Notes under the pieces: model-generated | Seen by the model: the letters and a program-made list of their open reading frames with translations, nothing else | Databases searched by the model: none | Told to the model about the DNA's origin: nothing | Shown: positions 1 through 14,075 of the stretch, one piece after another | Layout of the letters: the number at the start of each line of letters is the position of its first letter | Position numbering within the stretch: the first letter of the stretch is position 1 | Position numbers and translations under genes: made by a program | Assembly (NCBI GenBank): GCA_026400815.1 | Contig: JAPLOI010000075.1 | Location: 124,001 to 188,000 of the forward strand | Direction: 5' to 3' | Length of the DNA stretch: 64,000 nucleotides | Source: Alphaproteobacteria bacterium | GTDB lineage: Bacteria; Pseudomonadota; Alphaproteobacteria; Acetobacterales; Acetobacteraceae

Positions 1-106
1 GGTGGCTGATGAGTGTCACGGGTTCGGACTGGGCGCGCACGTTGAGCGCGGGCAGGGCGAGTGCGGTGCCCAGGGCGGCGCGGCGGCCGATTTTTGTCTT
101 GGCCAT
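1..106 (-). CDS. Exported protein, N-terminus only (probable substrate-binding protein)
   Basis: Only the first 35 codons are in the window; the gene continues past the left edge. The product starts MAKTKIGRRAALGTALALP and carries a twin-arginine-like signal (G-R-R-A-A-L-G), a short hydrophobic stretch and an A-Q-S cleavage region, so it is exported. A ribosome site (AGGGG) precedes the ATG. It lies 44 nt downstream of an amidohydrolase on the same strand and probably shares its transcript. Periplasmic solute receptors often sit beside such catabolic hydrolases, which is why a binding protein is proposed. The visible mature part is too short to assign a family. Confidence 0.6.
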   Translation of the reverse strand, partial: MAKTKIGRRAALGTALALPALNVRAQSEPVTLISH

Positions 107-150
107 GGTCGTTTCCCCTTTTGGTGCCGCCCCTCTGCGGGGGCGTGCGG

Positions 151-1257
151 TTACTTGAAGCCGTACACCTCGCGTGCGTTGCCGATGAAGAAGCGCTCGC
201 GGTTCTTTGCGTCGACGTGCATCGGCAGGGCCTGGGATGGGTCGTCGAAATCCCAGTGCGGGTAGTCGGTGGCGAAGAGCAGGCGGTCCCAGCCGATCCA
301 GCCGATGGTGTCCAGCAGGTGCTCGCGGGGTTCCGGCTCCTCCATGGGCTGGGTGGTGAGCCAGATGTTGCGGTGGATGTATTCGCTGGGGGAGAGGCGG
401 AGGTGCGGGGTTTCCTGCTTGAGGATCCGCCAGTTGCGGTCCAGCCGCCAGGCCAGCGGGGGGAGCCAGGCGAAGCCGGCTTCGACCATGAGGACCTTGA
501 GGCTGGGGTGATCCTCGAACAGGCCTTCCACCACCATGGAGGAGACCTGGGCCTGGGCGGCCTGGGCGTGGCCGGTCATTTCCTCGATGTAGAAGCTGGG
601 CCAGCCGGCGGGGGTGACGGGGGTGCCGCTGTAGCCGAAGGCGTGGATGCTGACGGGCAGGCCGGCGGCGACCGCGGCGGCGAAGATGCGGCGGTAGCGC
701 TTGGCGCCCAGCGGTTCGCCGGTGCGGCCGAGGATGAGGACCTGGCAGAATTCCGGGCGGCCCGCGCAGCGTTCGATCTCGGCGACGGCGGCTTCGGTGT
801 CTTCATAGGGGATGCAGATGGAGGCGCGGAAGCGGGGCTCCTTGCCGACCAGGTCGTGGGCCTGCCATTCGTTGGTGGCGCGGCACATGGCGGCGGAGAG
901 GTAGGGGTTGGCGAAGCCCTCACCGGAGGGGGTGAGGGGGTTGATGACGGCGAAGTGGACGTTCAGCGGGTCGAAATACTGCTGGCGCATGAAATCGAGG
1001 TCGGTGCCCGGGGCGCCGCCGGGGGGCCAGGAGTCGCGCCTTGCGGCGTTGGGCTGGGCCTTGGGGTAGGGGTTCACGCCGTTCTGGTGGCCCTGGCGCT
1101 GGGACATGCCGTAGGTGGCGATGTAGTCGCGCCAGCGTTGCGGCAGGAAGCGGTCGAGATGGGAGAGATGGGGCAGCACCGGGTGCGTGTCGCAATCGGC
1201 GATGGCCATCTTGGTCATGGCGGCTGGTGCGGCCTGCGGGCGGACCTCGACGTTCAT
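151..1257 (-). CDS. Amidohydrolase-2 family metal-dependent hydrolase (paralogue 1)
   Basis: A 368-residue TIM-barrel hydrolase of the amidohydrolase-2 (ACMSD-like) family, which includes decarboxylases and hydrolases of small carboxylated or aromatic-derived compounds. The N-terminal metal site reads D-C-D-T-H (residues 21-25), and the late catalytic Asp lies in F-A-T-D-Y-P-H-W-D-F-D-D (about 328-339). The ATG at 1257 is preferred over an upstream in-frame ATG because AGGAAG sits about 8 nt before it. It is divergent from the Rieske gene at 1395. A weak sigma70-like pair (1309-1314 and 1285-1290, 18 nt spacer) could drive it. Two paralogues lie at 4958 and 6067. The substrate is unknown. Confidence 0.85.
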   Translation of the reverse strand: MNVEVRPQAAPAAMTKMAIADCDTHPVLPHLSHLDRFLPQRWRDYIATYGMSQRQGHQNGVNPYPKAQPNAARRDSWPPGGAPGTDLDFMRQQYFDPLNVHFAVINPLTPSGEGFANPYLSAAMCRATNEWQAHDLVGKEPRFRASICIPYEDTEAAVAEIERCAGRPEFCQVLILGRTGEPLGAKRYRRIFAAAVAAGLPVSIHAFGYSGTPVTPAGWPSFYIEEMTGHAQAAQAQVSSMVVEGLFEDHPSLKVLMVEAGFAWLPPLAWRLDRNWRILKQETPHLRLSPSEYIHRNIWLTTQPMEEPEPREHLLDTIGWIGWDRLLFATDYPHWDFDDPSQALPMHVDAKNRERFFIGNAREVYGFK

Positions 1258-1394
1258 GAGGCGTCTTCCTGCGCGATTTCGGGGAGGATAGGGGGAAAGG
1301 CGGGGTGTCGACAATCGGTAGCTGCGCCGTGCACCCCCGCGACAAGGCGGCTGGGATGCGGCATTATTGGGGCGATTCCAATGGGAGCGGACGG

Positions 1395-1715
1395 ATGTCG
1401 GAGAACTGGGTGCGCGTGGCGGCGGCGAGCGACGTGGCGGAGGGCACGGCCTTTCCGGTGGAGATCAACGGGCTTACGCTGGCGCTGTATCACCTGGAAG
1501 GTGGCCAGTACTACTGCACCGACAATATCTGCACCCATGCCTTCGCGCTGCTGACGGATGGGTATCTGGATGGGAACATCGTGGAATGCCCGCTTCATGC
1601 GGGGCAGTTCGATGTGTGCACGGGCAAGGGGCTTGGCGCGCCGATCGAGGAAGACCTGCAGACCTACAAGGTGAAGGTCGAAGGTGGCGAATTGCTGGTG
1701 AATTTGCCCGCCTAG
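1395..1715 (+). CDS. Rieske [2Fe-2S] ferredoxin (dioxygenase-ferredoxin type)
   Basis: A 106-residue soluble Rieske protein starting MSENWVRV. The cluster ligands are visible as C-T-H and C-P-L-H-A-G, the C-x-H and C-x2-H pairs that bind a [2Fe-2S] cluster. Its size and the Q-F-D-V-C-T-G-K segment resemble ferredoxins that pass electrons to ring-hydroxylating dioxygenases. The ATG at 1395 has GGAG 8 nt upstream; an open frame extends 5' but lacks a ribosome site. No oxygenase alpha subunit or reductase gene is in the window, so its partner is unknown. It is divergent from one amidohydrolase, and a second Rieske gene lies 2.8 kb away with two more. Confidence 0.85.
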   Translation: MSENWVRVAAASDVAEGTAFPVEINGLTLALYHLEGGQYYCTDNICTHAFALLTDGYLDGNIVECPLHAGQFDVCTGKGLGAPIEEDLQTYKVKVEGGELLVNLPA

Positions 1716-1755
1716 AGCGGGAGCCGACCTGATAGGCGGTCGGCTCCCGCTCTAG
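1712..1755. terminator. Perfect 18-bp inverted repeat over the Rieske stop codon
   Basis: Two perfectly complementary 18-nt arms (1712-1729 and 1738-1755) enclose an 8-nt loop. The left arm includes the TAG stop of the Rieske gene. It is followed by a short T-containing stretch (GTCTTTGTTT), as in an intrinsic terminator for the plus strand. Confidence 0.6.
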
Positions 1756-1769
1756 GTCTTTGTTTGAGC

Positions 1770-1816
1770 GAGCAACTTTAGCCCATCCGGCGATTCCGCC
1801 TGGTGGGCTGTTGCTC
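1770..1816. terminator. Second hairpin between convergent genes
   Basis: The outer arms GAGCAAC (1770-1776) and GTTGCTC (1810-1816) pair exactly. The interior carries a near-complementary AGCCCATC/TGGTGGGCT pair and a small GGCG/CGCC core. It abuts the stop codon of the acyltransferase on the minus strand. With the preceding hairpin it probably forms a bidirectional terminator. Confidence 0.45.
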
Positions 1817-3723
1817 TAGGGCTTTAGCGCGACATCCAGATACGTGACGGCCGAGCGCACGTAGCTGGGCCTGAGATGGACTGCGTCCTTGTAGATGGGC
1901 GTGCCGCCTGGTGTGGCGGCGGGGCAGGTGGACTTGGTGCAGAGGTGGTCGAGTGGGTCGATCACCTCGGCCCCGGCTTGGCGCGCGGTGGCCGCGAGGG
2001 CGTGCGAGATGGCGCCGTATTCCGCTTCGAGCCGCGCGCGGTCCAGCGCCATGGGGCGGGTGCCGAAGGTGAGCAGGCCGCGCGTGACGCTCTGGCGCGG
2101 GTCCAGTTCGGCGCCCCAGTGGATGTTGAGCACCAGGATGACGCGCCGGCCCTCTCCGACCCAGCGGGTGATCGTCTCGCCGAGGGCGGCCAGGGCGGCG
2201 TCTCGGCCCGGTGGTTCCGATAGGGGGGCGCTGCCGGCGGTGATACGGGGTGAGGTGAAGTGGCCCCACCACTGGGCGCCGATCACCACGGTGCTGACGC
2301 TGTGCGTTGTTATCGCTGTCTCGGCGGCTGGCATCAGGGTGGCGCAGCCTGGGAGCTTGGCGTCGCGCAGGCCGGGGATGGGCACGCAGCCGCCGCCGGT
2401 GAGGAACAGGGCTGGGCGGTGTGAGTCCGGGGCTGTGCGCAGGAGGGCGACCATGCGCGGGGCATATTGTTCGATGTTGCTGTCGCCTAGGAACAGGACG
2501 GGCGCCCCGGTGCCTGGCTGGCGGTAGAGCACCCGTCCGCCGGCGGAAAGGCGTTCCATGGTGCCGGGGTAGTCCCATTCGCCGGCGGCTTGCAGCACGT
2601 TGTCAACGCCGAAGCGGCTGGCGTAGGCGGGCAGGGCGCCCATCAGCACGGTCTGGCCGGCCAGGGCGAGTGTGGTGCAGCCTGCGACCAGCGCCATCGC
2701 GGTGCGTGGGCGCCGCCAGCCGCCGAAGCGGATTGGGCGTTCCACCCAGAGATAGGTGGCGACCGCCAGAAGTGCTGCAGCGGCGACCAGCGTGGCGCGC
2801 ACCCAGGTGGCTGGTTCGGCGCCTTCCGTGATTCGTGCCAGGGACAGCAGGGGCCAGTGCCAGAGGTAGAGCGGGTAGCTCACCAGACCCACCGCAACCA
2901 GGGCGTGGCGGGCCAGCAGCAGCCGGTTGGGCCAGGCGGCGGGGCCGGCCGCGATGACCAGCGCCGTGCCGAGCACCGGCACCAGGGCGCGCCAGCCGGG
3001 GTAGGGGGCGTGGCGGTCGAACAGGAAGGCCGTGGCCAGGATGGCGGCCAGGCCGGCCGATGCGGCCCAGCCTGCTGCCGGTATGCGCACCGGGCCCAGG
3101 CGCGCCAGCAGGACGCCGGCCAGGAGCTCCCATACGCGCGACTGCGGCAGGAAATAGGCCGCCGCCGGATTGCGGCCGGTATCCAGCAGGCCGTAGCCGA
3201 AGGATGCCGCAAGCAGCGCTGCCAGCACCGGCACTGCCCAGCGGGGACGTTTTGCCAGGCCGAGGGCGACGAGTGGGAAGACGAGGTAGAACTGCTCCTC
3301 GATCGCCAGGGACCAGAGGTGCAGCAGCGGTTTCAGCTCCGCCGCCGTGTCGAAATAGCCGCTTTCGCGCGCCAGGGTGAAGTTGGAGAGGTAGGTGGCG
3401 CCGGCCCGTACGTGGCGGCCGAGCATGCGCCATTCGTCGGGCAGCAGCAGCACCCAGCTGGCCGCCAGAGTGAACGCCAGCACCAGCAGCAGGGCCGGCA
3501 GCAGGCGCACTGCGCGGCGCGCCCAGAAATCCAGCAGGGAGAAGCGGCCACGCGCCTGCTCGGCGAAGATGATGCCGCCGATCAGCCAGCCGGAGACGAC
3601 GAAGAACACGTCCACGCCCACGAAGCCGCCGGGCACCAGCGTGGGGAAGGCGTGGAACAGTACCACCGGCACGATGGCGACAGCGCGCAGCCCATCGATA
3701 TCAGGCCGGTAGGCGACCGCCAT
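1816..3723 (-). CDS. Acyltransferase 3 / SGNH two-domain membrane O-acetyltransferase (OafA-like)
   Basis: A 635-residue protein of the OafA/YrhL family that O-acetylates surface polysaccharides or other glycans. The N-terminal half, from about residue 5, begins R-P-D-I-D-G-L-R-A and V-F-F-V-V-S-G-W-L-I, then runs through about ten hydrophobic segments (acyltransferase-3 domain) to about residue 350. The C-terminal periplasmic half is an SGNH esterase-like domain with F-L-G-D-S-N (nucleophile Ser) and a late D-A-V-H-L-R-P (Asp/His of the triad). Length and architecture are normal for the two-domain class. It faces the Rieske gene across the hairpin pair at 1712-1816. The acceptor glycan is not evident from its neighbours. 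Confidence 0.9.
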   Translation of the reverse strand: MAVAYRPDIDGLRAVAIVPVVLFHAFPTLVPGGFVGVDVFFVVSGWLIGGIIFAEQARGRFSLLDFWARRAVRLLPALLLVLAFTLAASWVLLLPDEWRMLGRHVRAGATYLSNFTLARESGYFDTAAELKPLLHLWSLAIEEQFYLVFPLVALGLAKRPRWAVPVLAALLAASFGYGLLDTGRNPAAAYFLPQSRVWELLAGVLLARLGPVRIPAAGWAASAGLAAILATAFLFDRHAPYPGWRALVPVLGTALVIAAGPAAWPNRLLLARHALVAVGLVSYPLYLWHWPLLSLARITEGAEPATWVRATLVAAAALLAVATYLWVERPIRFGGWRRPRTAMALVAGCTTLALAGQTVLMGALPAYASRFGVDNVLQAAGEWDYPGTMERLSAGGRVLYRQPGTGAPVLFLGDSNIEQYAPRMVALLRTAPDSHRPALFLTGGGCVPIPGLRDAKLPGCATLMPAAETAITTHSVSTVVIGAQWWGHFTSPRITAGSAPLSEPPGRDAALAALGETITRWVGEGRRVILVLNIHWGAELDPRQSVTRGLLTFGTRPMALDRARLEAEYGAISHALAATARQAGAEVIDPLDHLCTKSTCPAATPGGTPIYKDAVHLRPSYVRSAVTYLDVALKP

Positions 3724-3802
3724 GGATCAGCGCCGCGGCGTGCGGAGGCTGTGTGCGCGGAATGTGCCTAACGTCACGCCCATCCTCCCCGACACCGCCA
3801 GA

Positions 3803-4225
3803 TTATCGTGCCGCAAAGGGGTTCACCACGGGCACGGCGAGATCGGCGAAATGCCGTACGTTGCGCGTTGCCAGCGTCGCCCGGTGTGCCAGCGCGGTCC
3901 CGGCGATCATCGTGTCGGCCAGGTCGACCGGCCTGCCTTGCTGGCGTCTTGACGCCATCAGTGCGGCCGAGGCCTCGGCGGCGGGGCGATCGAAGGCCGC
4001 GATCCGTCCCCCCAATTCTTCCACCAGCACGGCATCCAGTGTGGCGGCCAGTCCGTCGCATCGGCGCCCCAGCGGCAGCAGGGCGAGGCCTTATCGCAGT
4101 TCCATCACCGAGACGGCCGGAATCCAGACGTCTTCGGCCGAGCACAAATCGAGCCAGCGCAGTACCGAGGTGTCGGGCTCCGCGCGCATGAGCTCCGCGA
4201 CCACGTTGGTGTCGAGCAGGATCAC
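3803..4225 (-). pseudogene. vapC: VapC/FitB-type PIN-domain toxin interrupted by an in-frame stop
   Basis: Read from the GTG at 4225, this is a 140-codon PIN-domain ribonuclease: I-L-L-D-T-N-V at the start (first acidic residue D5), V-S-V-M-E-L-R (E42) and later D-L-A-D-T-M-I-A-G-T-A (third acidic site). Codon 45, immediately after E-L-R where the family usually has Tyr-Gly, is TAA (minus-strand codon at 4093-4091). Reading resumes in the same frame with G-L-A-L-L-P and continues to a normal C-terminus, so a single nonsense change separates this from an intact toxin. It starts 9 nt after the antitoxin stop. A sequencing error or readthrough cannot be excluded. Confidence 0.8.
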
Positions 4226-4234
4226 GCGCCGGGG

Positions 4235-4504
4235 TCAGCCCTGGTCGCCGAACGGAGGCGTTCGCGGGGCGAAGCCCTTCAGCGCCATGGCCTGCGCTTC
4301 CGCCTCCGACAATCCGGTACCCCGGAACCGTGCCGCGATCCGGCTGCCGAGGCCTTGGGCGGCCGGCTCGGTGCCCATCCCCATTACCGCGCTGCGCAGC
4401 ACCTCGCGCACTTCCGCCTCCAGGCTGCGGCCGTTGCGCGCGGCCTGGGCTTTCAGGCTGTCCTTCACCCGTTCGTCGAGGTTGCGCACCACGAGCTGCG
4501 CCAT
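4235..4504 (-). CDS. vapB: VapB/FitA-type ribbon-helix-helix antitoxin
   Basis: An 89-residue protein starting MAQLVVRNLDERVKDSLKAQ, the typical N-terminus of FitA/StbC-like ribbon-helix-helix antitoxins that bind their own promoter as dimers. The middle (G-R-S-L-E-A-E-V-R-E-V-L) completes the RHH fold, and the tail would wrap the toxin. The ATG at 4504 has a strong GGAGG 6 nt upstream. The reading frame stays open further 5', but that part lies opposite other coding sequence. The antitoxin is intact although its toxin is interrupted. A 12-bp palindrome at 4527-4538, just upstream, is a likely autoregulatory operator. Confidence 0.85.
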   Translation of the reverse strand: MAQLVVRNLDERVKDSLKAQAARNGRSLEAEVREVLRSAVMGMGTEPAAQGLGSRIAARFRGTGLSEAEAQAMALKGFAPRTPPFGDQG

Positions 4505-4526
4505 GCCATCCTCCGCGATATCGTTC

Positions 4527-4538
4527 TGTGATATCACA
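4527..4538. promoter_or_regulatory. Candidate VapB operator palindrome
   Basis: TGTGATATCACA is a perfect 12-bp palindrome 23 nt upstream of the vapB ATG; a second GATATC lies at 4517-4522. RHH antitoxins usually bind short palindromes at this position. It overlaps the stop codon of the upstream Rieske gene. Assignment is by position and symmetry only. Confidence 0.4.
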
Positions 4539-4947
4539 TCTCGACGACGACGTACTGCTCCTCCACGGAGACCGGGATGGTCTCGGCCACGTAGGGGCCG
4601 TTCACCACGGCGGCGCCGGCTTCCACTTCCACCGGGTAGGTGCGGATGCGGGTTTTGTCGGGGTCGACGTAGCTCTGGCCGGTCTTGATGTCGAATTCCC
4701 AGCCGTGCCAAGGGCAGCGCACGATCTCGCCCTTGCGGGAATAGAGGTATTCGCCGGGCTGCTTGGCCTCGCGCAGGCCGGTGATCAGGCCTTCGCACAT
4801 CGGGCCGCCCTGGTGCGGGCAGCGGTTGAGCATGCCGAAATATTCGCCCTTCAGGTTGAAGATGGCGATCGGCCGCCCGCGCACGGTGACCAGCTTGCGG
4901 CCGCCCTCGGGGATTTCCTGGGCGGTGGCAACGACGTGTCGGCTCAT
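4534..4947 (-). CDS. Rieske [2Fe-2S] domain protein
   Basis: A 137-residue Rieske protein starting MSRHVVATAQEIPEGGRKL. The cluster ligands are C-P-H-Q-G-G and C-P-W-H-G-W-E-F-D, separated by a longer loop than in the 106-residue Rieske protein at 1395, so the two are distinct proteins rather than recent copies. It is the last gene of a minus-strand unit: amidohydrolase (6067-7137), amidohydrolase (4958-6070), then this gene after 10 nt. The tight spacing implies co-expression and perhaps an oxygenase-like or redox role with these hydrolases. No partner reductase is visible. The vapB operator palindrome overlaps its 3' end. Confidence 0.88.
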   Translation of the reverse strand: MSRHVVATAQEIPEGGRKLVTVRGRPIAIFNLKGEYFGMLNRCPHQGGPMCEGLITGLREAKQPGEYLYSRKGEIVRCPWHGWEFDIKTGQSYVDPDKTRIRTYPVEVEAGAAVVNGPYVAETIPVSVEEQYVVVEM

Positions 4948-4957
4948 CTTCCGTCCC

Positions 4958-6070
4958 TCAGACCGCGCACCCGCGATAGACTTGGCGGGCGTTCCCCATG
5001 AAGAAGGCGCGGCGCTGTTCCTCGCTGATCTTCATCGGCAGCACGTGCGCGGGGTCGTCGAAATCCCAGTGCGGGTAGTCGGTGGCGAAGATCAGCCGGT
5101 CCCAGCCCATCCACTCGATGGTCTCGGCGAGGCGGGTGGGGCTTTCCGTTTCTTCCATCGGCTGGGTGGTCCACCAGACCTTCTCGCGCAGGTATTCGCT
5201 GGGCAGGCGCTTGAGGTGTGGGGTTTCGCTGCGCAGGGTCTTCCAGTGCTTGTCCAGCCGCCATGCGAGCGAGGGCGCCCAGGCGAAGCCGGCTTCGATC
5301 ATCACCATCTTCAGCGCCGGGAAGCGTTCGAACACGCCTTCGATCACCAGGCTGGTGAGGCCGGCCTGCTGGCTTTGGCTGTGGCCGGTCATTTCCTCGA
5401 TGTAGTAGCTCGGCCAGCCGCCGGGGGTGATGGGGTTGCCGCCATAGCCGAAGGCGTGCACGCCGACCGGCATGCCGGCTTCCTCGGCGGCCTCGTAGAT
5501 CGGCCAGTATTTGCGGCTGCCCATCGGCTCCGCGGTGCGGCTCAGCAGCAGCACCTGGACGAAGGCGGGGTTGCCGGCGTAGCGGCGAATTTCCGCGGCG
5601 GAGGCCACGGGGTCTTCATAGGGAACAACAACGCTGGCCCGCAAGCGGTTGTCCTTGCTGGTCCATTCCGCCAACTGCCATTCGTTGGTGGCGTGGCACA
5701 GGGCGGCCGAGAGTTCCGGGTTCTGCACGCCCTGGCCGGAGCCGAGCGGGTTGAGGATGCCCAGCTCGATGTTGTTGGCATCGAGGTGCTGGCGCTGCAT
5801 GAATTCCAGCGAGCTGCCCGGGCGGCCGCCTTCCGGCGGATAGGCGTCGCGGCGCGAGGCGTTCGGCTGGCTCTTGGGATAGGCCGGGCCGACCTGCCAG
5901 CCCTGGCGCCCCGGCGAGCCGTATTCGTTGATATGGTCCTGCCAGCGCTTGGCCAGCCAGGGGTGGAAATCCTTCGGGCCCTTGCGCGCCGGGTGGATGT
6001 CGCCATCCCCGATGCCGACCTTGCTCGCCGCTGTGACCTCAGGCGTCGCCTGGGAACGGATTTCGTTCAT
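4958..6070 (-). CDS. Amidohydrolase-2 family metal-dependent hydrolase (paralogue 2)
   Basis: A 370-residue paralogue of the hydrolase at 151. Its N-terminal metal motif is D-G-D-I-H-P and its C-terminal motif is F-A-T-D-Y-P-H-W-D-F-D-D-P, identical over this stretch to paralogue 1. The internal segments I-H-A-F-G-Y-G-G-N and W-P-S-Y-Y-I-E-E-M-T-G-H are also shared, supporting duplication and divergence. The start is the ATG at 6070, which overlaps the stop of the upstream paralogue as ATGA, so the two are translationally coupled. The family acts on small carboxylates through a divalent metal. The substrate is not predictable here. Confidence 0.87.
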   Translation of the reverse strand: MNEIRSQATPEVTAASKVGIGDGDIHPARKGPKDFHPWLAKRWQDHINEYGSPGRQGWQVGPAYPKSQPNASRRDAYPPEGGRPGSSLEFMQRQHLDANNIELGILNPLGSGQGVQNPELSAALCHATNEWQLAEWTSKDNRLRASVVVPYEDPVASAAEIRRYAGNPAFVQVLLLSRTAEPMGSRKYWPIYEAAEEAGMPVGVHAFGYGGNPITPGGWPSYYIEEMTGHSQSQQAGLTSLVIEGVFERFPALKMVMIEAGFAWAPSLAWRLDKHWKTLRSETPHLKRLPSEYLREKVWWTTQPMEETESPTRLAETIEWMGWDRLIFATDYPHWDFDDPAHVLPMKISEEQRRAFFMGNARQVYRGCAV

Positions 6071-7137
6071 CCGACGGTCTCCATGAGACGGGCATAGGTT
6101 GCCCTTGGGTTGTCGATCGCGATCTTGCGGGCCAGTTCGGGGCTGAGCCCATCCGGCAGCGCCGCGTTGCCGTCGAACTGGTGGTGCGGGTAGTCGGTGG
6201 AGAACAGCAGCAGCTCGTCGCTCTGCATATGGTCGAAGAGTTTCAGCAGGCTTTCCTGGTCCGGCGGGCCATCCACCGGCTGCAGGGAGAAGCGCACGTT
6301 GCTGCGCACGATGTCGCCGGGGGCGCGATCCACCCAGGGGATCTCCATGCGCAGGCCGCGCCAGTATTTCGTCAGGCGCCAGAGATGCGCGGGCAGCCAG
6401 GTGAAGCCGGATTCCAGCAGCACGACCTTGAGGTGCGGGAACTTGGTGAACACGCCTTCGCAGATCATGCTGGTCAGCTGGGTCTGGAAGGCCTGGGCCT
6501 GGCCGACATAGTCTTCGGTGTAGTAGCTCGGCCAGCCCACGGGGGTGGGCGGGTTGTGGTAGGAGCTGCCGGCGTGGATGCCCACTGCGAGGCCGTGCTT
6601 CTCGCAGGCCGCGTAGATCGGCCAGTGGTGGCGGCGGCCCAAGGGCGTGTCGCCGGAGACCAGCAGCAGGACCTGCACGAAGCGCTTGTCGGTGGCGCAG
6701 CGGTTGATCTCGTCCACCGCCATTTCGACGTTCTGGGTGGGGACGACGATGGAGGCGCGCAGGCGGGGCTCCTTATCCAGCCACTCCTTCACCATCCAGT
6801 CGTTCACGGCCCGGGCGAAGGCGGCACCCATGTCTTCGCTGAACAGCAACTGCACGCCGTAGAGGCAGTTGGCGATGGCGACCGAGGTGCGGAACGGGTC
6901 GAGCGCCTGCCTGGCCACGGTGGCCACATCGGCGGCCGGGCGGCCGGCGGCGGGCTTCCAATCGGCGCGGCAGGTGAGGGGGGAGTTCAGCGGGTAGGAG
7001 ATCGAGTTCAGCTCGTCGATCCCGCGCATCACCACCTGCTCGCGCCAGTGGTCCTCCAGATAGGGCATCAGCGCCTGGACACTGGGCACCGAGGGATGGA
7101 TGTCGCAGTCGATCGCACCTTCCGGCAATGCCGTCAT
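6067..7137 (-). CDS. Amidohydrolase-2 family metal-dependent hydrolase (paralogue 3)
   Basis: A 356-residue family member and the first gene of the three-gene minus-strand unit. The metal motif is D-C-D-I-H-P; the C-terminal motif is F-S-T-D-Y-P-H-H-Q-F-D-G, so it has lost the W-D-F-D-D of the other two. It is the most divergent of the trio, with V-G-I-H-A-G-S-S-Y in place of H-A-F-G-Y. This suggests a related but different substrate. The ATG at 7137 has GGAGAG upstream. The promoter must lie in the 167-bp divergent gap to the serine hydrolase gene; no clear consensus box was found there. Confidence 0.85.
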   Translation of the reverse strand: MTALPEGAIDCDIHPSVPSVQALMPYLEDHWREQVVMRGIDELNSISYPLNSPLTCRADWKPAAGRPAADVATVARQALDPFRTSVAIANCLYGVQLLFSEDMGAAFARAVNDWMVKEWLDKEPRLRASIVVPTQNVEMAVDEINRCATDKRFVQVLLLVSGDTPLGRRHHWPIYAACEKHGLAVGIHAGSSYHNPPTPVGWPSYYTEDYVGQAQAFQTQLTSMICEGVFTKFPHLKVVLLESGFTWLPAHLWRLTKYWRGLRMEIPWVDRAPGDIVRSNVRFSLQPVDGPPDQESLLKLFDHMQSDELLLFSTDYPHHQFDGNAALPDGLSPELARKIAIDNPRATYARLMETVG

Positions 7138-7304: not shown

Positions 7305-8921
7305 GTGACCGATCTGGACGCCACCCTGCTGCACCGCCATGTCGCCACCCTGCTGTCCCCCTGGCGCGATGCGCCCGGCCCCGGCGTTGCCATCGGGATT
7401 GTGCGCGGGAAGGAGCTGGTGCTGCACGAAAGCGGCGGGCTGGCGAGCATCGAGCTGGGGCTGCCGATCGGGGAGGGCACCACGTTCCGCATTGCCTCGG
7501 TGAGCAAGCAGTTCACCTGTGCGGCGATCCTGCTGCTGGCGCAGGAGGGCAGGCTCTCGCTTTCCGATGATGTTCGGCTGCATGTGCCGGAGCTTGCGGC
7601 GTTCGCTGGGGTCGTCACGATTGACCACATGATGCGGAATACCTCCGGCATTCGCGACATGCTGGAGATCATGCGCACCGGCGGCACCGACCTTGCCATG
7701 CCGGCGAGCCATGAGCAGCTGCTGGCCGGGATCGCCCGGCAGCGCACGCTGAATTTCGCGCCTGGGAGCCGGTATCTGTATTCCAATGCCGGGTTCATGC
7801 TGCTGGGGGTGATCGCGGAGCGGGCCAGCGGGATGAAGCTGCGCGATTTCCTGGCCCAGCGGCTGTTTGCCCCCGCGGGCATGAGCATGACGCGGATGGT
7901 GGAATCCACCACCGAACTCGTGCCGGGCCTGGCGACCGGCTACCTGCCGGCCAACCCGGCCGATGGCGTGGGCCCCTGGGTGAAGGCGCAGCATGGGTTT
8001 GCCGTGCATGGCGAGGGGGCGCTGGTGTCCTCCGTTGTTGACCTCGCGCTTTGGGCGCGGGCCTGCGAGACCAACCGGCATGGGCTGACGCCGGAGCTGG
8101 AGGAATGCGCGCCCTTCACCAACGGCACGCTGAACGACTACGCCCGCGGGCTGCGGCTTTCCTCCGTGCGCGGCGTGCGCACCGTGAGCCATGGCGGGCT
8201 GTGGCCCGGCTACAAGACCGAGTTCCTGCGCGTGCCGGAGCTGGAGACGGCGATCGTGGTGATCGCCAACAACGCCACCGCCAATCCCTACGCCATCGGG
8301 CAGAAGATCCTGCACCACATCCTGGACAGCACGCCGGGCGCCAAGCCGGCCTTGAAGCTGCCGGCGCCGGATGTGCTGGCGCGCCATGTTGGCCGCTTCC
8401 TCAACCCCGCCGTGCCGGCCACGGTGGATTTCACCCTGTCGGACAAGGGCGTGCTGAGCGGCAGCACCAACGGCGTGGCCTTCGAGGTGCGGTCGTTCGG
8501 CGATGGGCGGCTGGAATCCTCCAATGCCGGGCGGGATTTTGCCTTCCGCCTGGCCGCCGATGGCAACAGCATGGAGATCGAGCTGGATGCCGGCACCACG
8601 GCCAGCTACCACCGTGTGAAGCCCGATGCCGGGCTGCCGGCCGATCTGCCGGGCACTTATCGGTCGGACGAGATGGCGGCGACCTGGACGATTTCCGCGC
8701 ACCCCGCCGGCATGGACCTTGCCATTGATGGCCCGCATGCGAAGGCCGGGCCGTGGCCGCTGGAGGGGATTGAGGGCGATATCTTCCGCGTGTGGAGCCC
8801 CGGGGCACTCTATCGCTCCTGGCAGGATGCGCGCGTGGTGCGCAATGCCGAGGGGGCGGTGACCGGGCTGCTGATCAACGGCAACCGGGTGAAGAACCTG
8901 GCCTTCACGCGCGCCGCATGA
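7305..8921 (+). CDS. Serine hydrolase, beta-lactamase class C / D-aminopeptidase-like
   Basis: A 538-residue protein whose N-terminal ~350 residues are a class C beta-lactamase-fold hydrolase. The nucleophile motif is S65-V-S-K68, followed by Y-S-N (Y-x-N motif, about residue 157) and S-H-G-G in place of K-T-G. The C-terminal ~190 residues form extra beta domains with G-T-Y-R-S-D-E and A-T-W-T-I, resembling the accessory barrels of D-aminopeptidase. There is no signal peptide, so it should be cytoplasmic. It starts at GTG 7305 behind a GAGG element and is translationally coupled (ATGA) to the following DinB-like gene. D-amino-acid amide or peptide hydrolysis is the best guess; esterase activity is possible. 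Confidence 0.8.
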   Translation: MTDLDATLLHRHVATLLSPWRDAPGPGVAIGIVRGKELVLHESGGLASIELGLPIGEGTTFRIASVSKQFTCAAILLLAQEGRLSLSDDVRLHVPELAAFAGVVTIDHMMRNTSGIRDMLEIMRTGGTDLAMPASHEQLLAGIARQRTLNFAPGSRYLYSNAGFMLLGVIAERASGMKLRDFLAQRLFAPAGMSMTRMVESTTELVPGLATGYLPANPADGVGPWVKAQHGFAVHGEGALVSSVVDLALWARACETNRHGLTPELEECAPFTNGTLNDYARGLRLSSVRGVRTVSHGGLWPGYKTEFLRVPELETAIVVIANNATANPYAIGQKILHHILDSTPGAKPALKLPAPDVLARHVGRFLNPAVPATVDFTLSDKGVLSGSTNGVAFEVRSFGDGRLESSNAGRDFAFRLAADGNSMEIELDAGTTASYHRVKPDAGLPADLPGTYRSDEMAATWTISAHPAGMDLAIDGPHAKAGPWPLEGIEGDIFRVWSPGALYRSWQDARVVRNAEGAVTGLLINGNRVKNLAFTRAA

Positions 8922-9415
8922 TCACGCCGGCCTACGTTCGCACCATGGCGGCGTACAACGCGGAGATGAACCGGCGTTGGTACGCCGCTGCGGATAGCCT
9001 GACCGATGCGCAGCGCCGGGAGGACCGGGGCGCCTTCTTTGGCTCCATCCACGGCACTCTTTGCCACCTCGTCTGGGGCGACAGCACCTGGATGGCCCGC
9101 TTCGCCGGCTGGCCGCGGCCCGCTGTGCCGCAGGGCGACAGCCCCGGCATGATTGCGGACTGGGAGGTGCTGAAGGCGACGCGCTTCGATCTCGATGCGC
9201 GCCTGATCGGCTGGGCCGGGACCGTGACGCAGGAATGGCTGGATGAGGACCTCGCCTGGTTCAGCGGCAGCATCCAGAAGGACCTGGTGATGCCGAAGGG
9301 GCTGTTGGTGACGCATATGTTCAACCACCAGACCCATCATCGCGGGCAGGCGCATGCCATTCTGACCAGCTTTGGTGCCAAGACGGGCGATACCGATTTG
9401 CCGTTTGTGCTCTAG
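8918..9415 (+). CDS. DinB-superfamily putative metal-dependent protein
   Basis: A 165-residue four-helix-bundle protein of the DinB family. The three metal-binding histidines characteristic of this fold are suggested by H-G-T-L-C-H-L-V-W-G-D and, near the C-terminus, H-Q-T-H-H-R-G-Q. Many members are thiol-dependent transferases or remain uncharacterised. The start at 8918 overlaps the preceding stop as ATGA; an upstream extension in this frame overlaps the serine hydrolase gene and is not credible. It probably forms an operon with the serine hydrolase and perhaps the MFS gene 11 nt downstream. The exact activity is unknown. Confidence 0.8.
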   Translation: MITPAYVRTMAAYNAEMNRRWYAAADSLTDAQRREDRGAFFGSIHGTLCHLVWGDSTWMARFAGWPRPAVPQGDSPGMIADWEVLKATRFDLDARLIGWAGTVTQEWLDEDLAWFSGSIQKDLVMPKGLLVTHMFNHQTHHRGQAHAILTSFGAKTGDTDLPFVL

Positions 9416-9426
9416 GCACGCATGCC

Positions 9427-10632
9427 TTGCTGAACAACCTGCCTGCCCGGGAACGCCGCATCCTGCTTTGGATGTGCATCCTTGTTGCCGTCAACCAGCT
9501 TGGCTTTGGCAGCGTGGTGCCGGTGCTGCCGCTGTATGCGCGCCAGTTCGGGGTTCCCGTTGCCTGGATCGGTGCCGCCATTGCTGCCTATGGCCTGGCC
9601 CGGCTGTTCTCCTCCGCACCCGCCGGCCAGATCGCGGACCGGTTCGGCCGCCGGCATGCGCTGGCGGCCGGGGCCATTGCGACCTCGGCCGGGAATCTGT
9701 GGTGTGCGCTGGCTGCTTCCTACCCCGAGTTCATGGCCGGGCGCTTTGTGGCTGGGATCGGAGCCGGGATGGTGGTGACGGCCGGGCAGATCGTGCTGAC
9801 CGACATCACCACGCCGGAGCGGCGCGGGCGGATGATGTCGCTGTACTGGGGCAGCTTCATTTTTGCCGCCGGGGCGGGGCCCTTGCCGGGCGGGTTGCTG
9901 GCGGAGTGGTTTGGGCTTTCGGCGCCGTTCTGGGCCTATGCCGTGGTGGGGTTGTTGGTGGGCGCCATTGCCTGGTTCGCGGTGGGGGAGACCCGGGAGA
10001 TCGCGCGGGCGGGGGCCCGGGGGACGAAGCTGCCCAGCTTTTTCGCGCAGTTGAAGCTGGTGGGCGCCAATCGGGGCTTCGCGCTGGTGTGCCTGGTGTC
10101 GCTGGTGAACGCGGCGACACGGACCGGTGGGCTGTTCAGCATTGTGCCGCTGCTGGGGGCCGAGTGGCTAGGGCTTGCGCCGGGCACGATCGGGCTTTCG
10201 ATGGCGCTTGGTTCCGTGGTGGGCCTGCTTGGGGCCTACCCCGCTGGCTGGCTGTCGGACCGGTTTGGTCGCAAGCCGGTGATTGTGCCGACCGCCATCC
10301 TTTCCGGCGTCGCCATGCTGCTGTTCTGCGTGGCGCCGGACCTGACGTGGTTCATGGCGGCCAGCCTCGCCTGGGGGCTTGCTTCCGGCATGGGTGGCCC
10401 GGCGCCGGCCACCTACGCGGCCGATACCGCGCCGCCGGGGATGAATGCCGCGGCGATGAGCCTGTTCCGCATGTTAGGGGATATCGGCTACGTCGCTGGG
10501 CCGATCGGGCTCGGCCTGATCACGGATTTCTACGGGCCCGCGACGGGGCTGGCGGTCAGTGCCGGGCTTCTGGTGGCCTCGGGCATCGCCTTTGGCCTGT
10601 TCGCCCCGGAGACATGGAAAGGCCGGAAGTAG
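9427..10632 (+). CDS. MFS transporter, DHA1-type drug/metabolite exporter
   Basis: A 401-residue, about 12-helix major facilitator protein of the inner membrane. The family motif A appears twice, as G-Q-I-A-D-R-F-G-R-R-H after helix 2 and G-W-L-S-D-R-F-G-R-K-P in the second half, and the early V-V-P-V-L-P-L-Y segment is typical of DHA1 proton-antiport exporters. The start used is TTG 9427; an in-frame ATG at 9472 would shorten the N-terminus and neither has a clear ribosome site. It follows the DinB-like gene by 11 nt and ends at the hairpin repeat at 10638. The substrate is unknown. Confidence 0.85.
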   Translation: MLNNLPARERRILLWMCILVAVNQLGFGSVVPVLPLYARQFGVPVAWIGAAIAAYGLARLFSSAPAGQIADRFGRRHALAAGAIATSAGNLWCALAASYPEFMAGRFVAGIGAGMVVTAGQIVLTDITTPERRGRMMSLYWGSFIFAAGAGPLPGGLLAEWFGLSAPFWAYAVVGLLVGAIAWFAVGETREIARAGARGTKLPSFFAQLKLVGANRGFALVCLVSLVNAATRTGGLFSIVPLLGAEWLGLAPGTIGLSMALGSVVGLLGAYPAGWLSDRFGRKPVIVPTAILSGVAMLLFCVAPDLTWFMAASLAWGLASGMGGPAPATYAADTAPPGMNAAAMSLFRMLGDIGYVAGPIGLGLITDFYGPATGLAVSAGLLVASGIAFGLFAPETWKGRK

Positions 10633-10637
10633 GGCCT

Positions 10638-10735
10638 GTTCTTTCCGAAGAAAAACCTTCATCCGTTTGCTTGCCTCGGCGCAAGCGGATGAAAGTTTTT
10701 TGGTTCTTTTTTTCAAAAAAGAACCGCTTGCTTCC
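10638..10735 (-). repeat. Intergenic multi-hairpin repeat, copy R1 (minus orientation)
   Basis: First of five related AT-rich elements. On the minus strand it starts 10 nt after the flavoenzyme stop with hairpin H1 (10702-10725; GGTTC, T6/A7 tract, GAACC), then an AAAAAACTTT box. Middle hairpin H2 follows (10658-10693), with an 8-bp outer stem TTCATCCG/CGGATGAA and an inner CTTG/CAAG. A small TTCTT/AAGAA remnant of H3 lies at 10639-10652. It separates two convergent genes and may act as a terminator. Confidence 0.75.
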
Positions 10736-11836
10736 TTAAACGAACGGATAATCCGTATATCCCTTCTCCGCCCCGCCATAGAAGGTCGGCCGGTGGTACG
10801 GCGTGAACGGGATGTCCTCCGCGATGCGGCGCACCAGGTCGGGGTTGCTGATGAAGAAGCGCCCGAACGCCACCGCATCCGCGCGCCCGTCTGCCACCGC
10901 CTCGAACGCGTTGGCGCGGGTGAAGCCGCCGGCATCGATGATGGCCGTGGGCCAGACCGGGCGGAAGATTGCGGCGGTGGAGGGTTGGTCGTCGCGGAAC
11001 ACGTCTGCCTGGCCGGTGCCGCTGGCCCGCGGCTCGATCAGGTGCAGGTAGGCGAGCTTGCGCTTGGCCAGTTCGCCCACGAGGTAATTGTACAGCGGCA
11101 TCGGCTCCGCCTCGGAGCTGTCATTGGCGATGCCGTAGGGGGAGAGGCGGATGCCCGTGCGGTCCGCGCCCACCGCGCCGGCCACGGCATCGGCGATTTC
11201 CAGCGTGAGGCGCGAGCGGTTCTCGATGCTGCCGCCATAGGCGTCGGTGCGCTGGTTGGTTTTGGAATAGAGGAACTGCTCCAGCAGGTAGCCGTTGGCG
11301 CCGTGGATCTCCACGCCGGCGAAGCCCGCTTCCATCGCGTTTTCCGCCGCGCGGCGGAAATCGTTCACCACGGCGGCGATCTCGTCGAGGCGCAGGGCGC
11401 GGGGCACTTCGTAGGGCACGCGCTTGAAGAAGGCGGTCATGGCCATGCCCTGGGCCTGCACCAGGGAGGGCGCGACGGGCGGCTTGCCGAGAGGTTGGTG
11501 GCTGGAGTGCGCCACGCGGCCGGTGTGCCAGAGCTGCAGATACATGTGCCCGCCCTTGGCGCGCGCGGCGTCGGTCACCAGCTTCCAGCCTGCCACCTGG
11601 GCTGCCGAATGGATGCCCGGCACGTTGGGATGCCCGGTGGCCTGCTGCGACACCGGGGAGGCCTCGGCGATCAGCAACCCGCCGGGCGTGGCGCGCTGGG
11701 CGTAGTATTCGGCGTTCATCGCTGTGGGCGCGCCGTCGCGCCAGTGTGCCCGCATGCGCGTCAGCGGCGCCATCACCACACGGTGCGCGAGTTCGATCGC
11801 CCCCAGCTTCAGCGGGGTCATTAGCTTGTCGGTCAT
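10736..11836 (-). CDS. Old Yellow Enzyme-family alkene reductase (NemA/OYE class)
   Basis: A 366-residue FMN-binding TIM barrel of the classical OYE/NemA group, which reduces activated C=C bonds or nitro groups with NAD(P)H. Visible features are A-P-L-T-R-M-R near the N-terminus (Thr that tunes FMN), Q-L-W-H-T-G-R-V-A-H, the substrate-binding H-G-A-N-G-Y-L-L-E-Q-F (His/Asn pair), Y-G-G-S-I-E-N-R-S-R and a C-terminal phosphate-binding F-G-R-F-F-I-S-N-P-D. It starts 4 nt after the lactonase-like gene stop, so the two form an operon. Its 3' end is followed by repeat R1. Two other OYE-fold enzymes lie in the window (21476, 36636). Confidence 0.92.
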   Translation of the reverse strand: MTDKLMTPLKLGAIELAHRVVMAPLTRMRAHWRDGAPTAMNAEYYAQRATPGGLLIAEASPVSQQATGHPNVPGIHSAAQVAGWKLVTDAARAKGGHMYLQLWHTGRVAHSSHQPLGKPPVAPSLVQAQGMAMTAFFKRVPYEVPRALRLDEIAAVVNDFRRAAENAMEAGFAGVEIHGANGYLLEQFLYSKTNQRTDAYGGSIENRSRLTLEIADAVAGAVGADRTGIRLSPYGIANDSSEAEPMPLYNYLVGELAKRKLAYLHLIEPRASGTGQADVFRDDQPSTAAIFRPVWPTAIIDAGGFTRANAFEAVADGRADAVAFGRFFISNPDLVRRIAEDIPFTPYHRPTFYGGAEKGYTDYPFV

Positions 11837-11840
11837 GCTC

Positions 11841-12707
11841 TCAGAATCCGTAGAGTTTCGCGGGATTGTCCACCAGCACCTGCCGGATCACGGCGGGATC
11901 GCTCACGGCCTGGCCGAGCAGGCGAAGCAACGCGCGGTTGTCGTGGCCCATATAGACCACCTTTTCCGGCGCGCCGGCCTTGTGCGGGCCGATATGCGGC
12001 CAATCCGTGCCCCAGACGGCGCGTTCCGGGTTGGCTTCCACCAGGGCGCGGATCACCGGCACGGCATCCTCGAACGTGCCGCCGGCGCGGCTGACGCGGT
12101 TGGCGCCCGAGACTTTCACCCAGGCCTTGCCGGCGCGCAGCAGGGCGAGCACGTCATCGAAGCCCGGGCGGCTTGCGGCGAGCTTGCCGTCGCCGGCGCC
12201 CATGTGGTCGATCACGATATCCACGCCGAGATCGGCGATGGCCGGGGCCAGACCAGCCAGTAGCGAGGGCAGGGCGAAGATCTGGATGTGCCAGCCGAGC
12301 TTGCCGACCCGGGCCGCGGTTTCCTGCAGCTGCGCCACGGCGGCGCCCACATCCGGGATCCCGTTGCTCACCAGGTTGAGCCGCACGCCGCGCACGCCGA
12401 GCTTGGCCAGGGCCTTCAGCTCGGTGTCCTTCGTGGCGGCGTCGATCACCGCGATGCCGCGGCTGGTGGCGCCGCGGGCCTTCAGCGCATCCTTCATGCA
12501 GGTATTGTCGGTGCCGTAGGCGCTGGGCTGCACGAAGACCACGCGGCTGAAGCCCATCCGTGCTGCTTCGGCGTTGTAGACCGGCAGCGTCGCCGGCGTG
12601 GGGTCGTAGGCGCGCCACGCCGCCGGCGGATAGGCCGCCATGTTGCCGAAGATATGCATGTGGCAATCGGTGGCGCCTTTCGGCACCACGAATCCCAGAT
12701 CGGTCAT
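11841..12707 (-). CDS. TIM-barrel lactonase-like amidohydrolase (PDC hydrolase / COG3618 type)
   Basis: A 288-residue hydrolase related to 2-pyrone-4,6-dicarboxylate lactonase and other sugar-lactone hydrolases. The metal-site motif is A-T-D-C-H-M-H-I-F-G near the N-terminus; V-V-F-V-Q-P-S-A-Y-G-T-D-N, I-V-I-D-H-M-G and the late W-G-T-D-W-P-H with its Asp are family signatures. It differs clearly from the three amidohydrolases at 151-7137. It is the first gene of a minus-strand pair with the OYE and is divergent from the class II aldolase at 12769, so the three may serve one route. The true substrate (pyrone or sugar lactone) is undetermined. Confidence 0.85.
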   Translation of the reverse strand: MTDLGFVVPKGATDCHMHIFGNMAAYPPAAWRAYDPTPATLPVYNAEAARMGFSRVVFVQPSAYGTDNTCMKDALKARGATSRGIAVIDAATKDTELKALAKLGVRGVRLNLVSNGIPDVGAAVAQLQETAARVGKLGWHIQIFALPSLLAGLAPAIADLGVDIVIDHMGAGDGKLAASRPGFDDVLALLRAGKAWVKVSGANRVSRAGGTFEDAVPVIRALVEANPERAVWGTDWPHIGPHKAGAPEKVVYMGHDNRALLRLLGQAVSDPAVIRQVLVDNPAKLYGF

Positions 12708-12768
12708 CGGCCCTGTTCCCCCGCGTCGCGCCCGCTACACTAGGCGCAACGCAAGACCGGAGGAACCC

Positions 12769-13581
12769 ATGGACATCGCCGCCCCCTTCGCCCCGAACCC
12801 GCTGCGCATCCGCTCGCTTCGGGCCGAGGTCAGCCCCGCCGAATGGCAGGTCCGCCAGGACCTCGCCGCCTGCTACCGCCTGTGCGACCATTTCGGCCTG
12901 ACCGACATGATCGCCACCCACATCTCTGCCCGCGTGCCGGATCGGCCGAACGATTTCCTCGTGATTGCCCATGGCCTGCTGTTCGGGGAGGTGACCGCCA
13001 GCTCCCTGCTGCGCACGGACACGGACGGGAATGTGACCCTGCAGCCCGAGTTCGGGCCGGACATGCCGGACTACAACCTGCAGCCCGCCGCCTTCGTGAT
13101 CCATAGCGCCATCTACCGGGCGCGGCCGGACGTGAACGCCGCCATCCACACCCACACCACCGCGGGCATGGCGGTCTCCTCCCTGCAATGCGGGCTGCTG
13201 CCGCTGACGCAGACCAGCCACCGCTTCACCGGCCGCGTGGCCTACCACGACTTCAACGGCCCGGAGCGCGACATCGCGGAGCGTGAGCACATCGCCGGCC
13301 ATCTCGGCGACAAGTTCCTGATGATCCTGCGCAACCACGGCCTTCTGACGGTGGGGACCACCATGCAGGAAGCCTTCAGCTACATGTTCGGGCTGGAACG
13401 CGCCTGCCAGGCGCAGGTGGCCGCCATGTCCTGCAACACGCCGCTGAACACCCTGCCGCAGGCCATCGTGGACAAGTCCGCCGCCATGTATGCGCCGGGC
13501 GCCACGCGCAGCTACGGCAAGAAGGAATGGCCGGCGCTGCTGCGCATGCTGGATCGGCAGGATCCTTCCTGGCGGGAGTAA
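12769..13581 (+). CDS. Class II aldolase/adducin family protein
   Basis: A 270-residue protein starting MDIAAPFAPNPLRIRSL. The zinc ligands of class II aldolases are seen as H-T-H-T-T-A-G in the middle and R-N-H-G-L-L-T-V-G later. The aldol-cleavage Glu of fuculose aldolase is not obvious, and many members of this branch act as decarboxylases or lyases in degradation pathways. The ATG at 12769 has a strong GGAGGA about 5 nt upstream. An in-frame extension upstream overlaps the divergent gene and is rejected. It ends at repeat R2, and its regulation presumably sits in the 61-bp gap to the lactonase-like gene. Confidence 0.85.
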   Translation: MDIAAPFAPNPLRIRSLRAEVSPAEWQVRQDLAACYRLCDHFGLTDMIATHISARVPDRPNDFLVIAHGLLFGEVTASSLLRTDTDGNVTLQPEFGPDMPDYNLQPAAFVIHSAIYRARPDVNAAIHTHTTAGMAVSSLQCGLLPLTQTSHRFTGRVAYHDFNGPERDIAEREHIAGHLGDKFLMILRNHGLLTVGTTMQEAFSYMFGLERACQAQVAAMSCNTPLNTLPQAIVDKSAAMYAPGATRSYGKKEWPALLRMLDRQDPSWRE

Positions 13582-13587
13582 GCAAGC

Positions 13588-13722
13588 GGTTCTTTTTTGA
13601 AAAAAAGAACCAAAAAACTTTTGTTCGTTTGCGCCGGGGCTTGAAAACGGGCGCAAACGAATGAAGTCTTTTTCTGCTTCTTTTTTCTTCAGAAGAAAGA
13701 AGATTCTTCCTTTCTTAGGAGC
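13588..13722 (+). repeat. Intergenic multi-hairpin repeat, copy R2
   Basis: Starts 6 nt after the aldolase stop, in the same orientation. H1 is at 13588-13611 with the standard 24-nt sequence. H2 is a perfect 12-bp stem (13624-13635 with 13650-13661) whose sequence differs from other copies. H3, a CTTCTTTT/AGAAAGAAG-type hairpin at about 13678-13702, is imperfect. The element ends in CTTAGGAG, which serves as the ribosome site of the next gene. Confidence 0.8.
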
Positions 13723-13727
13723 CCCCC

Positions 13728-14075
13728 ATGCTGCGCGCCTTTGCCATCCTCCTCCTGTTCGCCAGCCCCGCCCTGGCCCAGTCTGGCGGCCACCAGGGCC
13801 ACGGCGCCGCCGCGGCCGGCGATGCGCCCTCCACCCGCGCCTACAAGCAGGTCAACGACAAGATGCACCGGGACATGTCTATCCGCTTCAGCGGTGACGC
13901 CGATCGCGATTTTGTCGCCGGCATGATCGCCCATCACCAGGGGGCGATCGACATGGCGAAGGTGGTGCTCCAGCACGGCAAGGACGCGGAGATCCGAAAG
14001 CTGGCGCAGGAGATCATTGCCGCGCAGGAAAAGGAGATCGCGCAGATGAAGGAATGGCAGGCGAAGCGGCGCTAA
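13728..14075 (+). CDS. DUF305 (CopM-like) exported protein
   Basis: A 115-residue protein with a signal peptide (MLRAFAILLLFASPALAQ) and a DUF305 four-helix core. The hallmark is M-I-A-H-H-Q-G-A-I-D-M-A, whose histidines, with upstream Met and His residues (G-G-H-Q-G-H-G and D-K-M-H-R-D-M), can bind copper or other soft metals. Characterised relatives act in periplasmic copper handling, but no copper pump or oxidase gene is adjacent, so the metal role is inferred. The ribosome site AGGAG is supplied by the end of repeat R2. The gene overlaps the 3' end of the convergent persulfide dioxygenase gene by 4 bp. Confidence 0.88.
   Translation: MLRAFAILLLFASPALAQSGGHQGHGAAAAGDAPSTRAYKQVNDKMHRDMSIRFSGDADRDFVAGMIAHHQGAIDMAKVVLQHGKDAEIRKLAQEIIAAQEKEIAQMKEWQAKRR

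Follow-up and report, generated by a model that had tools for sequence, protein, structure and literature searches.

Why should hydrolase-like genes lie beside genes for stand-alone Rieske ferredoxins, with no classical oxygenase to account for them? The question is raised by the first 7 kb of a 64,000-nucleotide stretch of DNA (the window; bases 124001-188000 of contig 31) in the 5.11 Mb, 97.55% complete genome of an Acetobacteraceae bacterium (assembly GCA_026400815.1). Here profile searches find three PF04909 proteins (H1, H2 and H3; E 8e-45 to 4e-52) and two PF00355 Rieske proteins (R and r2), as listed in Table 1. The H1 and H2 reading frames overlap by ATGA and R starts 10 bases past the H2 stop; H3 diverges from r2, and base 106 is where a minus-strand gene for an exported protein begins. 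A preliminary description of this DNA had this gene order right. It had also called the three amidohydrolases ACMSD-type, which holds for their Pfam family and not for their type, as the nearest solved proteins are AibH2 and AibH1. Its statement that no oxygenase is present has to be given up, because the family into which the hydrolase-like proteins themselves fit best is one of oxygenases already described, the amidohydrolase-related dinuclear oxygenases (AROs). We suggest, with high confidence, that H1, H2 and R constitute a multicomponent monooxygenase of the AibH1H2 kind, which is by far the best reading of the locus. The hydrolase-like proteins are very probably the oxygenase, and R is likely to be the electron donor to H1H2, in the role of AibG. 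Since the pair would make up the two halves of the oxygenase, none would be missing at the locus.

The ARO family and its Rieske link came into print in 2021-2024 (PMC7782822, PMC10401708, PMC10811679). AibH1H2 of Rhodococcus wratislaviensis hydroxylates 2-aminoisobutyrate, and cells needed AibH1, AibH2, AibG (a Rieske protein) and AibF (a reductase) together (PMC7782822). The two metals of AibH2 are bound by Asp25, His27, His211, Glu265, Asp337 and His340, and Asp342 is missing in the mononuclear AibH1 (PMC7782822). The active cofactor is Mn/Fe, and the D342A exchange in AibH2 lowered activity (PMC10401708). The name ARO for the wider class comes from the same group, who were led to SfbO by the Rieske gene next to it (PMC10811679). 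Among 555 AibH2-like proteins, 90% have an adjoining small Rieske gene (PMC10401708); thus the pairing noticed in the preliminary description was already in print and explained.

The assignment of H1 and H2 is carried by similarity and metal ligands and, for H2, also by fold. Compared with solved proteins, H2 matches AibH2 best (6m1w_B, E 2.9e-92; ACMSD, 3.8e-7) and H1 matches AibH1 best (6m1w_A, E 2.2e-81; AibH2, 1.7e-57; ACMSD, 4.7e-6). H2 has the ligand set D24, H26, H205, E259, D331 and H334, plus D336 (row DHHEDHD). In H1 the six ligands are kept, with Gln at the place of AibH2 Asp342 (DHHEDHQ). This one-residue split is general among the relatives, which were sorted by their best match to H1 or H2 of the window and not by motif. 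All complete H2-type rows read D-H-H-E-D-H-D (46 of 46 in a first set, 78 of 78 in a second; three further rows were cut or masked). In the H1-type rows an acid never occupies the Asp342 place (0 of 47 and 0 of 71); Gln, His or Arg stands there. Other ligands are missing as well from a few H1-type rows, e.g., DHQNDHR and DHHDDHR. In a tree of 250 sequences, 119 H1 and 130 H2 proteins form separate clades (supports 0.68 and 0.83, with one distant outgroup). The single-chain model of H2 (mean pLDDT 80.9, pTM 0.85) has AibH2 chains as its first seven PDB matches, with TM 0.87-0.88 by query length and 43-44% identity; SfbO comes next, and ACMSD (2wm1) reaches TM 0.64 at 21% identity. H2 unites three sequence and neighbourhood features of an ARO, namely a PF04909 sequence closest to AibH2 and SfbO, six ligands plus the acid, and an adjoining small Rieske gene, and the AibH1-type gene directly before it is a mark of the AibH1H2 type. 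From these sequences, and for H2 also from the model, H2 is very probably an AibH2-like and H1 an AibH1-like ARO member, with H1 predicted to be a non-catalytic partner. H3 (55% identical to H2; best solved match AibH2, E 1e-84) and H4, a fourth amidohydrolase left of the window, are both H2-type with the full dinuclear set (DHHEDHD) and probably represent additional AROs that lack an H1 partner.

The pairing with a Rieske gene, which the preliminary description had pointed out, is real and conserved. Relatives of R (E <=1e-10) are present in 42 of 100 genomes drawn from the family. In the best 60 of 87 Rieske matches outside the own genome (27 weaker ones were left out), 41 loci have both an H1 and an H2 gene no more than 6 kb away, and 34 of these show the one-strand order H1-H2-R; three loci have H1 only, one H2 only and 15 neither. 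Starting from H2, the best 80 of at least 581 confirmed loci, named and mainly from Acetobacteraceae and Bradyrhizobium, have H1 within 6 kb in 71 cases and R in 59 (5 more are cut at a contig end), and the one-strand H1-H2-R order is found in 56.

The genome itself gives the same picture. It has 16 PF04909 and six PF00355 matches, and eight of the 16 lie within 6 kb of one of the six, where about 0.23 would be expected; this proximity is more than chance. There are three H1-H2-Rieske operons, in the window and at C19 and C83. The remaining Rieske genes are r2, one beside a cytochrome-b-like gene and one for a 116-aa protein. Of the other eight PF04909 genes, one (window 11841-12707) is 6.9 kb from a Rieske gene, and the contigs of the remaining seven have no Rieske match.

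Three other explanations have to be weighed. First, H1 and H2 could be true ACMSD-like hydrolases or decarboxylases, with the Rieske gene a mere pathway neighbour that serves another enzyme. PF04909 is indeed mostly non-redox (PMC10401708), and the 15 Rieske loci with neither H1 nor H2 nearby fit such an arrangement. However, we consider it improbable, and ACMSD-type hydrolysis was rejected, on the weak ACMSD matches beside those to AibH2 and AibH1 and on the ligand rows, where H2-type proteins keep the full dinuclear set together with the Asp342 equivalent. In addition, the DYPHxD motif is absent from all six PF04909 proteins whose C-terminal end could be read among the seven on contigs without a Rieske gene. 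Secondly, the Rieske proteins could feed an oxygenase elsewhere, of the PaaABC type or a P450, with the amidohydrolases acting on its products. In its favour, the genome has a gene for a PaaE-type reductase at another site, and r2 resembles dioxygenase ferredoxins. Against this stand the frequent occurrence of R with H2 and the lack of any match in the genome to PF00848, the catalytic domain of Rieske oxygenases (positive controls matched in 4 of 14 genomes; no search for P450s or PaaABC was made), so that we give this explanation very little credence. An oxygenase just left of the window was considered as the Rieske partner and none of that kind is there; thus no classical oxygenase explains the pairing, as the preliminary description had held. 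Finally, descent from AROs with loss of the oxygenase function is the least credible, for although several H1-type relatives have lost ligands and the operon has no reductase gene, every complete H2-type row still has all of the ligands and the genome has three intact paralogous operons.

Several points weigh against a monooxygenase of the AibH1H2 kind. No reductase gene adjoins the three operons of the genome, an AibF-type FMN/2Fe-2S reductase being absent beside all of them, and the BphA4-type domain PF14759 has no match in the genome. R, like r2, passes no curated (NCBIfam) family cut-off. The ligand rows are not independent of one another, nor are they wholly free of bias: two of the ligands, though not the Asp342 place, form part of one of the two search patterns behind the second row set. 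In the H2 model, loops 56-71 and 209-228 have pLDDT <50, and because of this we make no statement on the pocket. The 80 H2 loci were taken from the top of a longer list in which Bradyrhizobium is frequent, and 12 of them have neither R nor r2 despite sufficient room. Some of the 15 Rieske loci without H1 or H2 are cut by contig ends. At three loci (L070, L073 and L088) R, r2 and a reductase stand in a row with no amidohydrolase; R-type Rieske proteins therefore serve something else too, and the R-type ferredoxin of these loci must have another partner.

For the monooxygenase that we favour, the following mechanism can be proposed by analogy with AibH1H2. H1 and H2 would form a heteromer in which the amidohydrolase barrel of H2 houses a dinuclear Mn/Fe or Fe2 site, and H1, with one metal, would be a structurally needed, non-catalytic partner. 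An NAD(P)H reductase encoded at another place would supply electrons, which R, and probably r2, would pass on. H2 would activate O2 and insert one oxygen atom into a C-H bond of some small compound taken up by the cell. The reductase may be one of the only two PF00175 proteins of the genome, both on other contigs: one is PaaE (434 bits, cut-off 420.8) and the other passes no curated cut-off. A BphA4-type enzyme was also sought elsewhere in the genome and rejected, PF14759 being absent and a BphA4-like query giving four weak matches (best E 3.5e-14).

The second Rieske type raises a further possibility. Nine distinct loci have an r2 relative next to H1/H2 (L036, L037, L102, L146, L150, L151, L152, L156 and L159), and R is also present at four of them (L036, L037, L102 and L152). 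A BphA4-type reductase gene adjoins ARO genes in four loci: L037, L057 and L151 (PF07992 + PF14759) and L152 (by similarity). In L152, from Limibaculum, reductase, r2, H1, H2 and R follow one another on one strand. We tentatively put forward, as an unlikely extension, a two-ferredoxin ARO in which a reductase would supply r2 and R, H1 would be an obligate docking and structural partner, and H2 would hydroxylate an amide- or amino-acid-like compound that the SxxK serine hydrolase encoded divergently from H1 releases or consumes. If this is true, the L152 array would be the complete form of the system. Two Rieske types at one ARO locus, including the L152 array, did not turn up in searches of the open-licence literature.

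The locus can be placed among known systems. It shares with AibH1H2-AibG-AibF the H1-H2-Rieske order, H1 and H2 proteins closest to their namesakes, identical H2 ligands and the acid missing in H1. It differs in that the operon has no AibF-like reductase and no gene of aib catabolism was seen next to it. There is also a second Rieske type, AibH2-type proteins that have no H1 are encoded close by, and identity to AibH2 is about 43-44%. SfbO and three further AROs (PDB 8SM6-8SM9) likewise combine a dinuclear amidohydrolase-fold protein with a small Rieske gene (PMC10811679) and match the H2 model with TM 0.82-0.86; however, they are 32-38% identical to H2, and the work on SfbO concerned one protein alone, while H2 is paired with H1. 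PtmU3, a PF04909 hydroxylase, has the fold in common and a dinuclear site by publication, but it is distant from H2 (E 1.5e-20, TM 0.69). ACMSD and gamma-resorcylate decarboxylase share the Pfam family and the barrel (TM 0.61-0.67, about 20% identity to H2), but are mononuclear non-redox enzymes by publication. Searches of the open-licence literature yielded no later paper on ARO substrates, no paper on TruffO, a name found in PDB titles, and no description of the strict H1/H2 division in these Alphaproteobacteria; PMC12746152 (riboflavin) concerns an ordinary Rieske dioxygenase.

Thus, the kind of system is known though little studied, and this locus adds a member. The word uncharacterised, applied earlier to the module, still fits its substrate and not its kind; of the proposed roles, degradation stands in that the system is probably catabolic, and redox-linked hydrolysis is very probably wrong. 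Behind the annotation as amidohydrolases lies a family of monooxygenases that activate O2 and may use manganese. Among the published ARO systems considered, AibH1H2 has a proposed native substrate and SfbO a surrogate one. The three operons in differing neighbourhoods, and relatives with a serine hydrolase or a reductase, offer handles on substrate and electron source, and the one-residue H1/H2 split makes the role of H1 directly testable.

Table 1. Features of the locus (window positions; L001 is the locus record that continues past the left edge of the window)
Feature	Position	Strand	Description
H1	6067-7137	minus	AibH1-type amidohydrolase-fold subunit; PF04909; H1 clade in tree
H2	4958-6070	minus	AibH2-type subunit, predicted catalytic; best solved relative AibH2; PF04909
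R	4534-4947	minus	Rieske [2Fe-2S] ferredoxin, 137 aa; PF00355; C-x-H...C-x2-H
r2	1305-1715	plus	second, shorter Rieske ferredoxin; PF00355; HcaC/MocE-like
H3	151-1314	minus	AibH2-type protein; PF04909; no adjoining H1 gene
ABC solute-binding protein gene, first 106 bases	1-106	minus	exported; PF13416, PF01547
Serine hydrolase, SxxK	7305-8921	plus	PF00144, E 1.2e-52; divergent from H1
Acyltransferase-SGNH gene	1816-3723	minus	between the two amidohydrolase/Rieske groups
Toxin-antitoxin remains	3803-4516	minus	between the two amidohydrolase/Rieske groups
H4, fourth amidohydrolase, AibH2-type	L001:11756-12862, left of window		ligand row DHHEDHD

The neighbouring genes give some clues to the substrate. 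The three operons of the genome differ here, with dipeptide-type ABC genes, CoA-transferase and luciferase-like genes, or the serine hydrolase beside them, and so point to no single substrate. The curated model nearest to the serine hydrolase is D-aminopeptidase (156 bits, below the cut-off of 443). Wherever H2 is at least 69% identical and the DNA is long enough to tell, which is the case at seven distinct loci (L036, L042, L046, L103, L104, L105 and L106), a relative of this hydrolase is encoded opposite in strand to H1-H2-R; in L036 the gene is 5.8 kb away and cut by the locus end, and L102 is too short to judge. None of the remaining loci read has such a gene. This link of a divergent serine hydrolase to the closest relatives of the window did not turn up in searches of the open-licence literature. 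A DmpA-type peptidase (PF03576) is also present in L046 and L104, and a relative of the 11841-12707 protein in L042 and L103. Our guess is that these neighbours point to an amide-, peptide- or lactone-like compound, and that the substrate might be small and polar, perhaps amino-acid- or amide-like.

Within the window, the genes described earlier as one module are where they were said to be, but they are not one operon, as the acyltransferase-SGNH and toxin-antitoxin genes separate the two groups. The latter comprise a FitA-like antitoxin (PF22513) followed by a toxin-like frame with an in-frame stop; by our own reading this is a decayed pair, the family match covering the antitoxin part alone. 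The conserved part of r2 begins at an internal ATG near 1395. Past the window edge, the solute-binding protein is 412 aa in full (L001:14868-16106) and is followed by two permease-like genes (L001:13913-14854 and 13093-13911), of which the one tested matches PF00528. At 10736-13581 there are Old-yellow-enzyme-like, sulfomuconolactone-hydrolase-like (166 bits, cut-off of 500 not reached) and class II aldolase-like genes, and relatives of one or more of these recur near H1-H2-R in L037/L106 (one contig), L042 and L103.

R-type Rieske genes have other neighbours elsewhere. The reductase of L070, L073 and L088 (~7450-11000) is BphA4-like, with TctC-like genes beside it and, in L073 and L088, also TauD-like genes (labels by eye). 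In L040, L044 and L048 the Rieske gene has an H1-type gene and no H2-type gene within 6 kb. A conserved 535-aa protein is encoded near R-type genes at L047:4830-6437 (no Pfam match) and, alike by eye, at L050:6676-8277. With no amidohydrolase near, an MBL-fold gene adjoins the Rieske gene at L049:1690-3322 (PF00753) and L053:6-1213 (by similarity), and it is possible that this neighbour is another oxygenase-like partner.

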